DNA of 64,000 bases. Source: Suttonella sp. R2A3 (GTDB taxonomy: Bacteria > Pseudomonadota > Gammaproteobacteria > Cardiobacteriales > Cardiobacteriaceae). The notes below the pieces were generated by a model. That model was not told where the DNA came from. It ran no database searches and was given only the letters and a program-made list of their open reading frames with translations. Positions 17,572 through 23,957 of the stretch are shown piece after piece (positions within the stretch are counted from its first letter, which is position 1; every line of letters begins with the position of its first letter). The translations under genes and the position numbers were made by a program. The stretch covers positions 675,501-739,500 of the forward strand of contig NZ_CP090975.1 in the NCBI RefSeq assembly GCF_021513215.1. Reading direction: 5' to 3'.

Positions 17572-18639
17572 ATGAGCGGTAACAGCATCGGGCGCAGCTT
17601 GATTCTCTCCACCTTTGGCGAAAGCCATGGTGTCGCTATTGGTGGCACACTCGATGGCTGCCCGCCAGGCATTGCGCTAGATGCCGCGATGATTCAACAA
17701 GACTTAGACCGCCGCAAACCGGGAACATCACGCCACGTTACCCCACGCCGTGAAAGCGATGAAGTTGAGTTACTATCTGGGGTTTTTGAAGGCAAAACGA
17801 CTGGCACACCGATTGGTTTATTGATTCGTAACGCCGACCAACGCTCACAAGATTACGGACAAATTAAAGAGCAATTTCGCCCGGGGCACGCGGATTTTAC
17901 CTATCAACACAAATACGGTCTGCGCGACTATCGTGGTGGCGGTCGCGCTTCAGCGCGTGAGACTGCAATCCGCGTGGCTGGTGGTGCGATTGCCAAAGTG
18001 GTTCTCGCCACGCTGTGCAACACACGCATCCGCAGTTATGTCTCACAAATTGGCGAACACAAGCTGCATTTTGACGATTGGGCTCATGTGACGAATAACC
18101 CATTCCAATGCCCGAATGCTGAACAAGTCCCGACCCTTGAACGCTATCTTTACGATATTCGAAAATCCGGCGATTCGATTGGTGCGGAAATCACCTTAGT
18201 TGCAGAATCGGTTCCAGTGGGCTTAGGCGAACCAGTTTTTGATCGCCTGGATGCCGAGTTGGCAAAAGCCTTGATGAGCATCAACGCGGTTAAAGGCGTG
18301 TCAATCGGTGATGGTTTTGATGTCATTACCCAAAAAGGCAGCGAACATCGCGATGAGCGCAACGCTAATGAAGGATTTCTGACCAACCGTGCTGGCGGCA
18401 TCCTTGGCGGGATCAGTAGCGGACAGCCAATTACCGCAAAAATCGCCTTCAAACCCACCTCAAGCATCTTAATTCCTGGACAAAGCACCAATATTCACGG
18501 TGAAGACGTATCGGTTGTGACTAAAGGTCGCCACGACCCCTGTGTCGCGTTGCGCGCCTGCCCAATTGTCGAAGCCATGGCGGCGTTAACCCTGTGTGAT
18601 CACTTCCTGCGTCAGCGCGGACAAACTGGTCGCATGTGA
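17572..18639 (+). CDS. aroC: Chorismate synthase
   Basis: Makes chorismate from 5-enolpyruvylshikimate-3-phosphate with reduced FMN. The 355-residue product has all three family signatures: [18 protein letters not shown] near the start, the [16 protein letters not shown] block, and the late [17 protein letters not shown] segment. It begins two bases after adk and overlaps the tmcA start by four bases (ATGA), forming an adk-aroC-tmcA transcription unit. Chorismate is the substrate for the trpE/trpG enzymes encoded elsewhere in the window. Confidence 0.97.
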
Positions 18640-20048
18640 CCCCGCGCCGCATTGAGCTGATTTCTTCAGAAGCGTTACCAAAAAATAGCGTTTTTGGCCG
18701 CGACCTAGATATTCGCCAATACCGGCAACAGCTAGGTCGCACGCATCACGAGCTTTTTTACGACGCCGAACACGGGCTACACCCAAACGCATTTGCCGCA
18801 CTCGCTGGAACACTCAGCGCGGGCGGCACCCTATATCTTCATTTACCCGAAACTTACCCTGCTGAAGGTGATCCCGACCATCAGCGAATGATTGACTATG
18901 GTGGCGATGTGAGCACTTGCACGAATCATTTTAACGCCCGCCTGCGTCATTTCATTCTCAATCCACCAGCGCAGCAAACCAACACTAGCACCAATCAACC
19001 CGCGGATTTTACACGGCAGGCACAAATTGTCGTTGGTCGTCGTGGACGGGGTAAATCGTATTGGTTAGGTGAAAAAATTAATTGGTTAGCCGAGCAAGGG
19101 TTTAAACAGATACTCCTTGTTGCCCCATTTCGTCATAACCTTGACTCACTACTTGCTGTGCTCAAAAATCCTACGGCAGTGACCATCCTGCCACCCGATG
19201 ACGCGCTCAACCGCCTGCCGAGCGCCGATTACCTGATTGTTGACGAAGCCAGCAGCATCCCGCTACATCAACTTCACGCGTTGCTTGCGCACTACCCACA
19301 ATTTTCCATGGCGGCAACCCTTGATGGCTACGAAGGTCAAGCGCAGCAATTCCGCCATAAACTGCGTCTACCTTGCGAGACGCAGTGGCTTACCTTTACC
19401 CAGGCTTACCGTTATCCAGCAAACGACCCGCTCGAGCGCATCATCGAACACGCGTTTTTACTCCATGAACCATTAAGCGAACCTACCCACAAGCAGGCTA
19501 AAGGTAAAATAGTACGGATTAACCCGCAACAGCTCGCCAACGATGAAGCACGATTGCGCGCCACCTTTGCCCTACTGCGTCACGCGCATTACCGTCACAG
19601 CCCAGCAGACCTTAAACGCTTACTCGATTTACCTGCGCAACAGCTATGGCTGATGGAACACGATAGTGCAGTGATCGGTGTATTACATGTCCTGCACGAA
19701 TCTCCTTTACCGCCCGAGCTGATCGAAGCGGTGATTGATGGCACGCGGCGTCCTCAAGGTCGCTTGTTGATGCAGCAATTGCTGCGTCGCACAGGCAAGC
19801 GCACTTACGGCATGAATCCGCTTAATCGCATCCAGCGCATTGCAGTACATCCCGACTTTCGTCGTCAAGGCATCGCCCGCGCATTAATTAGTGCGGCAAG
19901 CCATGAACTTAGCGCCCCACTCGGGGCAAGTTATGCTAAAAATGACGCACTTGAACACTTTTGGCACGCCCTTGGTTTTTACAACCTCACAGCAAATAAC
20001 CAGCAACGCTCAACCAGCAATATATGCCTGGAAGTTAACGCCCCTTAA
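18636..20048 (+). CDS. tmcA: tRNA(Met) cytidine acetyltransferase TmcA, short form
   Basis: TmcA acetylates the wobble cytidine of elongator tRNA-Met. The 470-residue product shows an N-terminal domain, a RecD-like ATPase with P-loop GRRGRGKS (about 134-141) and DEAS Walker B (about 203-206), and a GNAT domain with the acetyl-CoA loop [18 protein letters not shown] (about 401-418). It ends just after the GNAT fold. E. coli TmcA is about 671 residues with an extra C-terminal tRNA-binding region, which appears absent here. The 3' part, from about residue 289 onward, is the left end of the 2,063-bp tandem repeat, so a second partial copy lies downstream. Confidence 0.82.
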
Positions 20049-21564
20049 TACGTCGTTTATGCTAAACTTTGAGCGATATTTAACTAAGGTGACATCATGA
20101 GACATAGCGATATTATTGTGGTCGGCGGTGGACCTGCCGGTTTGAGTTTTTGTCGTTCATTAGCAGGTAGTGGCCTATCGATTACTGTGGTTGATAATCA
20201 CGACGCTGCAGAGCTTGAAAACGCGCCATTTGATGGTCGCGAAATTGCGCTAACCCACCCGTCAAAACATACTCTTGAAGCCACCGGGATTTGGCAACAT
20301 ATTCCCTCTAATGAGATTTATAACCTTCGCGAAGCTTCAGTGGTTAATGGTGATTCACCCTATTCATTGCATTTCCCACTACCTGAGACCAACCGCAAGA
20401 ATCAGCCGATTGAGACCTTAGGTTATCTGGTGACCAACCACCTGATTCGTCGAGCCGCTTATGCCGCGTGTCTTGAGCAAGACAACATCACTTGGTGCCT
20501 GGGACGTAAAGTCGTCTCCGCTAAAAGTGATGCTAATGCCGCGTATGTCACTCTTGATGACGAGACCCAGCTCTCTGCCGATCTGTTGATTGCTGCTGAC
20601 AGCCGTTTTTCATTCGTACGGCGTGAAATGGGCATCCCAACCGATATGCACGATTTCGGTCGCACGGTGATGGTGTTCCGCCTAGAGCACACCATCAGCA
20701 ATGATCATACCGCTTTTGAATGTTTTTTCTACGGTAGCACCCTGGCATTACTCCCACTCACCGATAATATGACCAACTGCGTGGTCACCATTGACACCCG
20801 CAAACTACACACCTTAAAAGCGATGAACGACGAAGAGCTTGCCAACCACATTGCCGAACAAGTCGATCATCGCTTTGGCGAGATGAAGCTAGCCAGCACC
20901 ATTCACGACTACCCACTTATGGGGGTTCATGCTCGCCGCTTTTACGCGAACCGCTGCGCATTGGTTGGTGATGCCGCCTGTGGTATGCACCCAGTCACCG
21001 CGCACGGCTTTAACCTCGGTCTACAAAGTCAGGCCATTTTAAGTCGGTTAATTTTACGCCAAGCGGGTCAAGGTAAAGATATTGGCGCGGCTGAAGTATT
21101 AACCCGTTATCACCGTGAGCACGTAAAAAACACCCGCTTGCTTTATCACGGCACCAATGCGATCGTGAAACTCTTCACCCAAGAATCGCGACCGGCAAAA
21201 ATCGTTCGTGATGGGGTGTTACGTTTGAGCAACCGCCTACCGCCACTCAAAACGCTAATCACACGCCAGCTCACGGGATAATGGCGAAGCATTCATATTT
21301 AACACTTGGGCTTTAAAGACAATCTTGCTACACTGCTCGCGTTATTTTTGTGGATCATAATCAGGAGTATCATTATGAACAAGAGCATTAAAGCCTTATC
21401 TCTAGCTGCCTTAGCTGCACTGAGTTTTGGCGCACAAGCCAAGGTAAGCGAAGGTCAGGCCTATGGCGACTGGAAAGGTGTGTGTAAAGACGGTGAGTGT
21501 GGTATTACACAAACGGTTAACAACGACAGCGGCCAACCAGTTGGACAAATTATCATCCGTAAAA
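19500..21564. repeat. Tandem duplication, copy 1 (2,063-bp period)
   Basis: This segment recurs at 21563-23627 with a constant offset of 2,063 bp. I found no mismatch by eye, and the encoded ubiM proteins are identical. It covers the 3' 40% of tmcA, all of the ubiM-like gene, and the first part of the ialB-like gene. The copies share only the two bases AA at the junction (21563-21564). No insertion sequence or transposase gene flanks them. Confidence 0.95.
20097..21281 (+). CDS. ubiM: FAD-dependent ubiquinone-biosynthesis hydroxylase, UbiM-like (copy 1)
   Basis: A 394-residue flavin monooxygenase of the UbiH/UbiF/UbiM group, which adds hydroxyl groups to the ubiquinone precursor ring. The GGGPAGLSFCRSLAGSG dinucleotide-binding motif opens the protein, a DGREIALTHPS arginine motif follows, and the late GDAACGMHPVTAHGFNLGLQ motif contacts FAD. 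The REIALTH segment resembles UbiM rather than UbiH or UbiF, but I assign the subfamily from recall. An AAGGTGAC ribosome-binding site precedes the ATG. An identical copy lies at 22160-23344 because of the tandem duplication. Confidence 0.75.
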   Translation: MRHSDIIVVGGGPAGLSFCRSLAGSGLSITVVDNHDAAELENAPFDGREIALTHPSKHTLEATGIWQHIPSNEIYNLREASVVNGDSPYSLHFPLPETNRKNQPIETLGYLVTNHLIRRAAYAACLEQDNITWCLGRKVVSAKSDANAAYVTLDDETQLSADLLIAADSRFSFVRREMGIPTDMHDFGRTVMVFRLEHTISNDHTAFECFFYGSTLALLPLTDNMTNCVVTIDTRKLHTLKAMNDEELANHIAEQVDHRFGEMKLASTIHDYPLMGVHARRFYANRCALVGDAACGMHPVTAHGFNLGLQSQAILSRLILRQAGQGKDIGAAEVLTRYHREHVKNTRLLYHGTNAIVKLFTQESRPAKIVRDGVLRLSNRLPPLKTLITRQLTG

Positions 21565-21575
21565 AGGTAAAATAG
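21375..21575 (+). pseudogene. Truncated ialB-like gene at the duplication junction
   Basis: The first 63 codons match the intact gene at 23438, including the signal peptide and the YGDWKGVC segment. At the junction (21563-21564) the frame runs into tmcA sequence and stops after a few foreign residues (KVK). The product would be an exported fragment of 66 residues lacking the C-terminal half. It keeps the original ribosome-binding site (AGGAG), so it is probably transcribed and translated, but function is unlikely. Confidence 0.85.
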
Positions 21576-22111
21576 TACGGATTAACCCGCAACAGCTCGC
21601 CAACGATGAAGCACGATTGCGCGCCACCTTTGCCCTACTGCGTCACGCGCATTACCGTCACAGCCCAGCAGACCTTAAACGCTTACTCGATTTACCTGCG
21701 CAACAGCTATGGCTGATGGAACACGATAGTGCAGTGATCGGTGTATTACATGTCCTGCACGAATCTCCTTTACCGCCCGAGCTGATCGAAGCGGTGATTG
21801 ATGGCACGCGGCGTCCTCAAGGTCGCTTGTTGATGCAGCAATTGCTGCGTCGCACAGGCAAGCGCACTTACGGCATGAATCCGCTTAATCGCATCCAGCG
21901 CATTGCAGTACATCCCGACTTTCGTCGTCAAGGCATCGCCCGCGCATTAATTAGTGCGGCAAGCCATGAACTTAGCGCCCCACTCGGGGCAAGTTATGCT
22001 AAAAATGACGCACTTGAACACTTTTGGCACGCCCTTGGTTTTTACAACCTCACAGCAAATAACCAGCAACGCTCAACCAGCAATATATGCCTGGAAGTTA
22101 ACGCCCCTTAA
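21563..22111 (+). pseudogene. tmcA 3' fragment (GNAT half) from the duplication
   Basis: Codes for the last 182 residues of TmcA, identical to the intact copy, with the complete acetyl-CoA-binding loop but without the ATPase domain. Its own start codon was lost. A TTG at 21617 could start a 164-residue GNAT-only protein, but no good ribosome-binding site is visible. It is best regarded as a remnant. Confidence 0.85.
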
Positions 22112-22159
22112 TACGTCGTTTATGCTAAACTTTGAGCGATATTTAACTAAGGTGACATC

Positions 22160-23344
22160 ATGAGACATAGCGATATTATTGTGGTCGGCGGTGGACCTGC
22201 CGGTTTGAGTTTTTGTCGTTCATTAGCAGGTAGTGGCCTATCGATTACTGTGGTTGATAATCACGACGCTGCAGAGCTTGAAAACGCGCCATTTGATGGT
22301 CGCGAAATTGCGCTAACCCACCCGTCAAAACATACTCTTGAAGCCACCGGGATTTGGCAACATATTCCCTCTAATGAGATTTATAACCTTCGCGAAGCTT
22401 CAGTGGTTAATGGTGATTCACCCTATTCATTGCATTTCCCACTACCTGAGACCAACCGCAAGAATCAGCCGATTGAGACCTTAGGTTATCTGGTGACCAA
22501 CCACCTGATTCGTCGAGCCGCTTATGCCGCGTGTCTTGAGCAAGACAACATCACTTGGTGCCTGGGACGTAAAGTCGTCTCCGCTAAAAGTGATGCTAAT
22601 GCCGCGTATGTCACTCTTGATGACGAGACCCAGCTCTCTGCCGATCTGTTGATTGCTGCTGACAGCCGTTTTTCATTCGTACGGCGTGAAATGGGCATCC
22701 CAACCGATATGCACGATTTCGGTCGCACGGTGATGGTGTTCCGCCTAGAGCACACCATCAGCAATGATCATACCGCTTTTGAATGTTTTTTCTACGGTAG
22801 CACCCTGGCATTACTCCCACTCACCGATAATATGACCAACTGCGTGGTCACCATTGACACCCGCAAACTACACACCTTAAAAGCGATGAACGACGAAGAG
22901 CTTGCCAACCACATTGCCGAACAAGTCGATCATCGCTTTGGCGAGATGAAGCTAGCCAGCACCATTCACGACTACCCACTTATGGGGGTTCATGCTCGCC
23001 GCTTTTACGCGAACCGCTGCGCATTGGTTGGTGATGCCGCCTGTGGTATGCACCCAGTCACCGCGCACGGCTTTAACCTCGGTCTACAAAGTCAGGCCAT
23101 TTTAAGTCGGTTAATTTTACGCCAAGCGGGTCAAGGTAAAGATATTGGCGCGGCTGAAGTATTAACCCGTTATCACCGTGAGCACGTAAAAAACACCCGC
23201 TTGCTTTATCACGGCACCAATGCGATCGTGAAACTCTTCACCCAAGAATCGCGACCGGCAAAAATCGTTCGTGATGGGGTGTTACGTTTGAGCAACCGCC
23301 TACCGCCACTCAAAACGCTAATCACACGCCAGCTCACGGGATAA
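22160..23344 (+). CDS. ubiM: FAD-dependent ubiquinone-biosynthesis hydroxylase, UbiM-like (copy 2)
   Basis: Encodes the same 394-residue flavin monooxygenase as the gene at 20097-21281, with the same AAGGTGAC ribosome-binding site and about 110 bp of identical upstream sequence. Both copies should be expressed if the promoter is in or before the repeat. This copy is followed by the intact ialB-like gene, as in the inferred ancestral order tmcA-ubiM-ialB. The FAD motifs are intact, so the duplication would raise dosage rather than inactivate the enzyme. Confidence 0.75.
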   Translation: MRHSDIIVVGGGPAGLSFCRSLAGSGLSITVVDNHDAAELENAPFDGREIALTHPSKHTLEATGIWQHIPSNEIYNLREASVVNGDSPYSLHFPLPETNRKNQPIETLGYLVTNHLIRRAAYAACLEQDNITWCLGRKVVSAKSDANAAYVTLDDETQLSADLLIAADSRFSFVRREMGIPTDMHDFGRTVMVFRLEHTISNDHTAFECFFYGSTLALLPLTDNMTNCVVTIDTRKLHTLKAMNDEELANHIAEQVDHRFGEMKLASTIHDYPLMGVHARRFYANRCALVGDAACGMHPVTAHGFNLGLQSQAILSRLILRQAGQGKDIGAAEVLTRYHREHVKNTRLLYHGTNAIVKLFTQESRPAKIVRDGVLRLSNRLPPLKTLITRQLTG

Positions 23345-23437
23345 TGGCGAAGCATTCATATTTAACACTTGGGCTTTAAAGACAATCTTGCTACACTGCT
23401 CGCGTTATTTTTGTGGATCATAATCAGGAGTATCATT

Positions 23438-23908
23438 ATGAACAAGAGCATTAAAGCCTTATCTCTAGCTGCCTTAGCTGCACTGAGTTTTGGCGCACAA
23501 GCCAAGGTAAGCGAAGGTCAGGCCTATGGCGACTGGAAAGGTGTGTGTAAAGACGGTGAGTGTGGTATTACACAAACGGTTAACAACGACAGCGGCCAAC
23601 CAGTTGGACAAATTATCATCCGTAAAATTGCTGAAGCGGATAACCAATTGATGATGTTTGTCACCGTTCCTTTAGGCGTTAACTTGCGTGCCGGTATGGC
23701 CCTTGCCGTTGATGGTAAAGAGTTAGGTGTTGCCCCTTATGACTTTTGTACAGAAGGTGGCTGTAATGCCGCGGTTGCGCTGACTAATGAAATCGCAGGT
23801 AAGATCAAAGCCGGGAATGTCCTACAAGTTGCCGCGTTTATTGTTGACGAACAGCAAACTATGGGATTCTCGCTTAAAGGTGTCACCAACGGTATTAATA
23901 GCCTATAA
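23438..23908 (+). CDS. Invasion-associated locus B (IalB)-family periplasmic protein
   Basis: A 156-residue exported protein with signal peptide MNKSIKALSLAALAALSFGAQA and cleavage after AQA. The mature part has the YGDWKGVC start, two further cysteines in a DGECGI segment and FCTEGGC, and the VPLGVNLRAGMALAVDG core typical of the IalB family. The name comes from Bartonella, but in most bacteria the role is unknown; disulfide bonds are likely. A CAGGAG site precedes the ATG. The gene is followed by an intrinsic terminator. A truncated duplicate lies at 21375. Confidence 0.85.
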   Translation: MNKSIKALSLAALAALSFGAQAKVSEGQAYGDWKGVCKDGECGITQTVNNDSGQPVGQIIIRKIAEADNQLMMFVTVPLGVNLRAGMALAVDGKELGVAPYDFCTEGGCNAAVALTNEIAGKIKAGNVLQVAAFIVDEQQTMGFSLKGVTNGINSL

Positions 23909-23931
23909 GGTTAGCCACCATAATGCACACA

Positions 23932-23957
23932 ATGCCCGACTTGCTCGGGCATTTTTA
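23932..23957 (+). terminator. Intrinsic terminator after ialB-like gene
   Basis: An 8-bp perfect stem ATGCCCGA / TCGGGCAT with a 5-base loop is followed by TTTTATTTTT. It closes the adk-aroC-tmcA-ubiM-ialB region. Confidence 0.9.

Follow-up and report, generated by a model that had tools for sequence, protein, structure and literature searches.

The single-contig record of Suttonella sp. R2A3 carries two adjoining head-to-tail copies of a 2,063-bp unit that includes the whole of ubiM, and this arrangement is probably a real and very recent direct tandem duplication that arose in the lineage of the strain by illegitimate joining. In the window, which is the whole 64,000-nucleotide stretch of DNA that was analysed, exact self-comparison shows positions 19500-21564 and 21563-23627 to be identical across 2,065 bp at an offset of 2,063, and this is the sole exact direct repeat that 40-base seeds detect within the 64,000 bases. 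The unit measures 2,063 bp, to which an overlap of two bases is added at the join, and nothing lies between the two copies. When the strain's own genome (one contig of 1,989,117 bp) is searched with the unit it is matched twice, each time at 100% identity (G000:C1:695000-697062 and 697063-699125). An exact repeat of 2,065 bp is no chance match. The original prediction had given the coordinates, the constant offset, the identity of the copies and the AA-only junction, all of which are borne out to the base, and the duplication of ubiM as it stands in the record is an event of an ordinary kind. The copies and the genes that they contain or interrupt are as follows.

18636..20048, + strand: tmcA-like gene, intact ORF of 470 aa, its 3' part inside copy 1 (ORF, family search, related loci)
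19500..21562, + strand: unit copy 1, identity extending to 21564 (exact self-comparison, own-genome search)
20097..21281, + strand: ubiM copy 1, 394 aa (ORF, NCBIfam PRK09126.1)
21375..21575, + strand: truncated ialB, 63 native codons (21375-21563), then KVK and a stop past the join (sequence, related loci)
21563..21564, no strand: AA, 2-bp microhomology, the sole sequence common to both sides of the join (self-comparison)
21563..22111, + strand: tmcA 3' remnant, codons 289-470, the acetyltransferase part, with a 164-aa ORF open from TTG 21617 (ORF, family search)
21563..23625, + strand: unit copy 2, identity extending to 23627 (exact self-comparison, own-genome search)
22160..23344, + strand: ubiM copy 2, 394 aa, identical to copy 1 (self-comparison, ORF)
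23438..23908, + strand: intact ialB, 156 aa from ATG, the mechanical ORF start being TTG 23369 (ORF, family search, related loci)

The unit begins at codon 289 of tmcA and ends after codon 63 of ialB, and comprises the last 182 codons of the former, the whole of ubiM and the first 63 codons of the latter. The record thus reads intact tmcA, ubiM, the truncated ialB', the remnant tmcA', a second ubiM and intact ialB, and once the second copy is taken away the genes run adk-aroC-tmcA-ubiM-ialB-serB, with adk named by eye. As with any direct tandem duplication no gene is lost, and the earlier description of ubiM as doubled whole, with one intact and one partial copy each of tmcA and ialB, is correct in its gene content. 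UbiM belongs to the NCBIfam equivalog PRK09126.1 (561.6 bits against a cut-off of 420) and IalB to Pfam PF06776 (83.8 bits against 22.1). The tmcA-like protein is short, at 470 aa compared with the 483-aa ORF of the same-genus genome G001, and its TmcA_N domain falls below the cut-off (21.2 against 22.7 bits), so that its activity is uncertain.

The nearest named relatives of UbiM are those of the Cardiobacteriaceae, namely Cardiobacterium hominis, C. valvarum, Dichelobacter nodosus, Rappaport israeli and MAGs; Psychrobacter UbiM lies at similar identity to these and burkholderial records are more distant. It had been proposed that a single-copy form be sought among related strains, and this form was found in G001, which has the order aroC-tmcA-ubiM-ialB, and in eight other family genomes, which have one ubiM each. 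The order in G001 together with the copy numbers identifies the single-copy arrangement as ancestral. At a threshold of E <= 1e-60, ubiM is present once in nine of the 11 other family genomes and absent from two, both of which are incomplete (72% and 78%), and none of the 11 has two. The single-ubiM genomes include G004, with one contig, and G009, with two, assemblies in which an exact repeat is less likely to have collapsed. The 14 related loci examined (eight from the family and six more distant; 14 of 18, with L041, L042, L044 and L045 left out) also show no second ubiM, in a comparison that has limited flanks to draw on and in which drafts may have collapsed exact repeats; the eight family loci are drawn from genomes among the 11 and are not independent of that count. 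In these eight, ialB follows ubiM in seven, and tmcA precedes it in two (G001 and Rappaport israeli). In the Rappaport israeli draft (L039) ubiM, tmcA and serB each appear in several tblastn pieces, as if frameshifted. The identity of the copies and the single ubiM in G001 and the eight other family genomes support the view that the duplication, if real, would be recent. The original prediction had left the choice between a very recent event and an assembly artefact; its recency stands on the condition that the duplication is real, and the artefact has been made less likely by the evidence set out below.

It is proposed that a point following codon 63 of ialB was linked back to one at codon 289 of tmcA with the use of at most two shared bases, either by replication template switching or by break-and-rejoin between sister chromosomes. 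The absence of long homology at the ends suggests that such a duplication would probably be RecA-independent, and the shared AA falls within the zero to a few bases by which illegitimate duplications are recognised. Two or more shared bases are found in 16.87% of 20,000 random pairs of sites at the same spacing, so the join does not exceed chance and is no guide to whether the origin was biological or an artefact. The longest substring common to both ends within 40 bp is 7 bp, a length of at least 7 being reached by about 32% of 5,000 random pairs. The join is also spanned by a 7-bp inverted repeat, ATCCGTA / TACGGAT, of a kind (at least 7 bp) found in 2.94% of 5,000 random pairs, which is not counted as evidence because it was sought after the sequence had been seen. 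A homologous origin mediated by repeats or IS elements was rejected, as the microhomology is only 2 bp and no transposase family was found by Pfam and NCBIfam in the seven proteins, encoded between 17572 and 27006, that were searched, in agreement with the transposon-free locus described before. Over-represented 9- to 12-mers of the DNA-uptake type are likewise missing from the window, where no 9-mer exceeds 10 counts on both strands together. The sampled GC skew, negative before, becomes positive between the stretches at 1.20 and 1.30 Mb, close to a DnaA match at 1.306 Mb, and negative again between 0.30 and 0.40 Mb, which places the duplication mid-arm with its genes read against the inferred direction of the fork; no weight is given to this as evidence.

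Several features of known duplications bear on this reading. Joins with microhomology or none are on record for bacterial gene amplifications, as are frequencies of duplication that range from about 1e-2 to 1e-6 per locus (PMC11721125). The locus resembles these spontaneous tandem duplications and amplifications in its head-to-tail copies, its short or absent homology, the one intact copy kept of each boundary gene and its expected instability; it differs in that its 2.1-kb unit is smaller than the 7-13 kb of the sdrM amplifications, and in that it is known from an assembly alone and has no known selection or phenotype (PMC11721125). Other records count against it. For the spontaneous duplications confirmed by probe in Salmonella, five of eight tested, junction microhomologies of at least 11 bp are reported from a set in which only joins of at least 7 bp were tested (PMC3411829), and next to these a 2-bp join looks no different from a chimera. 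Tandem duplications are also rare in Escherichia coli mutation-accumulation lines, with none in 67 wild-type lines and one in 37 mutS lines (PMC10292909), and this rarity too weighs against a real event. Judged from titles and the starts of abstracts, no report of a tandem ubiM duplication was found in the literature on UbiM/ubiquinone hydroxylase or ubiM duplication.

The structure should be unstable, as recombination between the 2-kb copies would restore a single copy or add further ones. A variant that overlaps with the duplication as proposed is that the culture was mixed, with one-, two- and more-copy cells of which the assembler gave one state. This is possible and is given an appreciable minority chance, in keeping with the typical instability and copy-number heterogeneity reported for amplified tandem repeats (PMC11721125).

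An artefact of assembly, the chief alternative, is rather unlikely. It would entail that an untrimmed overlap between the start and end of the circle, or a merging of contigs with a 2-kb overlap, was followed by a re-cut within a hisD-like gene, and that the true chromosome has one ubiM. The exact identity of the copies and the chance-level join both fit such an origin, and overlaps of thousands of bases are usual with some assemblers (PMC6966772). Identity says little by itself, since short-read polishing would equalise near-identical copies. The two ends of the contig lie inside one hisD-like gene (named by eye; L029:6000 / L028:1) without a shared overlap, and joining them disrupts the frame as a single surplus base would, in keeping with an off-by-one circularisation, which could stem from an off-by-one cut made by hand. 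However, the artefact requires two break points, one in hisD and one at ubiM. Untrimmed circular overlaps are normally found at the ends of a record, the end point here is 0.70 Mb away from the duplication, and an internal position would call for an arbitrary re-cut. The record shows no sign of deliberate rotation, since it begins within a gene and not at a gene's start or at dnaA, and the DnaA match at 1,306,192 shows that it was not turned to dnaA. Were the join a raw end, the cut would fall at 697,062 or 1,292,055 bases, neither of which is half of the contig (about 994,558) or a round number.

The assembly also preserves, with a single-base difference between copies, a second and far longer tandem array of 23.6 kb that is nearly exact, which again speaks against the artefact. 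This array consists of 2.86 copies of an 8,226-bp unit (G000:C1:896185-919751; L077, L057, L078) and encodes, besides a PTS EIIC-like and a TPR protein, a bacterial Ig-repeat (Big_6) protein of 1,759 aa; the presence of related Ig-repeat ORFs at its edges suggests that the array originated by homologous recombination. The resolved 8.2-kb array and the closure of the contig elsewhere favour a real event and make the artefact less likely. A survey for exact repeats took in the window and 44 stretches of 20 kb, which together amount to 943,500 distinct bases (including 9,000 N) or 47.4% of the contig. Each stretch was examined by itself, so that a tandem copy across a boundary could escape, and apart from the ubiM unit no housekeeping gene was seen in exact tandem copies. 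The long exact tandem repeats were the ubiM unit, the 8,226-bp array and, in long ORFs of the region of that array, repeats of 258 to 774 bp (L077, L057, L078), and the smaller ones a CRISPR array (L053), a 9-bp microsatellite (L082) and one 45-bp repeat (L089). The CRISPR array (L053:20-2200, from G000:C1:499020) has a 60-base spacing with 37 copies of a 20-base repeat core in the stretch, and its repeat switches part way from GTTCACC... to GTTAGCC....

An old duplication held identical by frequent gene conversion would also show exact identity but is highly improbable, given that a second copy is present in none of the 11 other family genomes, that the identity covers non-coding and broken-gene parts, and that direct repeats of 2 kb would hardly be expected to persist for long without being lost by recombination.

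If the tandem duplication is real, its consequences for expression would depend on the putative promoters, which follow the extended -10 pattern TGnTAnAnT and are listed here with the terminator-like site at the end of the locus.

20060..20068, + strand: putative extended -10 promoter of ubiM copy 1, TGCTAAACT (pattern TGnTAnAnT)
21326..21334, + strand: putative extended -10 promoter of ialB copy 1, TGCTACACT, followed in the record by ialB', tmcA' and ubiM copy 2 (TGnTAnAnT columns)
22123..22131, + strand: putative extended -10 promoter of ubiM copy 2 (TGnTAnAnT pattern)
23389..23397, + strand: putative extended -10 promoter of intact ialB (TGnTAnAnT columns)
23931..23953, + strand: terminator-like hairpin 3' of ialB (terminator scan)

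The pattern, which has a background frequency of 0.03 in 160 bases on one strand, occurs within 150 bases upstream of ubiM in five of nine loci compared, and is missing in C. valvarum, L035, L038 and Rappaport israeli. Upstream of ialB it is invariant in all six loci aligned, a set that left out L038 and Rappaport israeli, neither of which has it within 150 bases; a fixed 150-base scan finds it in five of eight loci, the D. nodosus copy lying further upstream. Against these promoters, a sigma-70 consensus scan lists none of the putative extended -10 sites, and its 11 promoter-like sites are at background level (8.8 +/- 3.1 expected). The terminator scan found 14 sites where shuffles give 9.4 +/- 3.0, with none listed on the + strand from 21334 up to ubiM copy 2, which starts at 22160, and with matches inside ubiM itself (22183-22205 and 23081-23098, + strand).

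As the putative ubiM and ialB promoters are both inside the unit, ubiM copy 2 keeps its own and sits downstream of a second ialB promoter. Both ubiM copies would then be expressed, each from its own putative promoter, with read-through from the second ialB promoter perhaps contributing to copy 2, and UbiM would be roughly doubled as the outcome. The join, in setting a second putative promoter upstream of ubiM copy 2, is akin to promoter capture by tandem duplication in the Salmonella his genes (cited in PMC11111574), but differs in that copy 2 retains a putative promoter of its own, so that capture is not needed for expression.

The possible weight of such a change lies in the role of UbiM. 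In the strain's own genome only the two ubiM copies exceed the curated cut-off of the UQ-hydroxylase family TIGR01988, and COQ7 was not found there; of the eight family relatives searched, seven have exactly one protein above the cut-off and the eighth, which is 72% complete, has none. A further FAD_binding_3 protein (1624862-1625878) reaches 91.2 bits against the family cut-off of 224.65. UbiM therefore looks like the sole recognised UQ hydroxylase of the genome. The oxygen-independent ubiquinone pathway employs two U32-peptidase-type proteins, UbiU and UbiV, whereas the genome has one U32-peptidase match, in an open frame of 449 aa; UbiA-type prenyltransferases are matched twice. Compensation for a broken second ubiquinone hydroxylase was considered and rejected, since the split FAD protein at 1028328-1029595 is not one of the proteins in this genome that the UQ-hydroxylase family matches; its similarity to PF01494 is weak (26.5 and 20.7 bits) and it is, by its look, presumably a halogenase-type flavoprotein. 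Its gene (L091, G000:C1:1028328-1029595) extends over two frames of 127 and 346 aa, either as a true pseudogene or through a residual assembly indel.

The UbiM of Neisseria meningitidis, expressed in E. coli, hydroxylates three positions (PMC5069965). The likeness to this generalist is that here too UbiM is the only recognised UQ hydroxylase; the difference is that N. meningitidis has a single UbiM (PMC5069965) and this strain two identical copies. By analogy UbiM may carry out all three ring hydroxylations in this strain as well. Dosage could matter for an enzyme that is the sole recognised hydroxylase and perhaps performs all three steps, the more so as the gene is duplicated together with its putative promoter. 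The original prediction had named a selected amplification of ubiM as one form that the recent event might take. That the duplication is a selected dosage amplification, in which a sole generalist hydroxylase acting three times per ubiquinone limits respiration and has its gene doubled with copy 2 also under the ialB promoter, is nevertheless doubtful.

Should the second copy be an artefact, it would caution users that a false second copy of a core gene stands in a single-contig record from this group. If the duplication is real, it presents a fresh tandem duplication caught before any divergence, in an organism where one enzyme seems to do all of the ubiquinone ring hydroxylations, and would allow a test of dosage limitation in a generalist enzyme.
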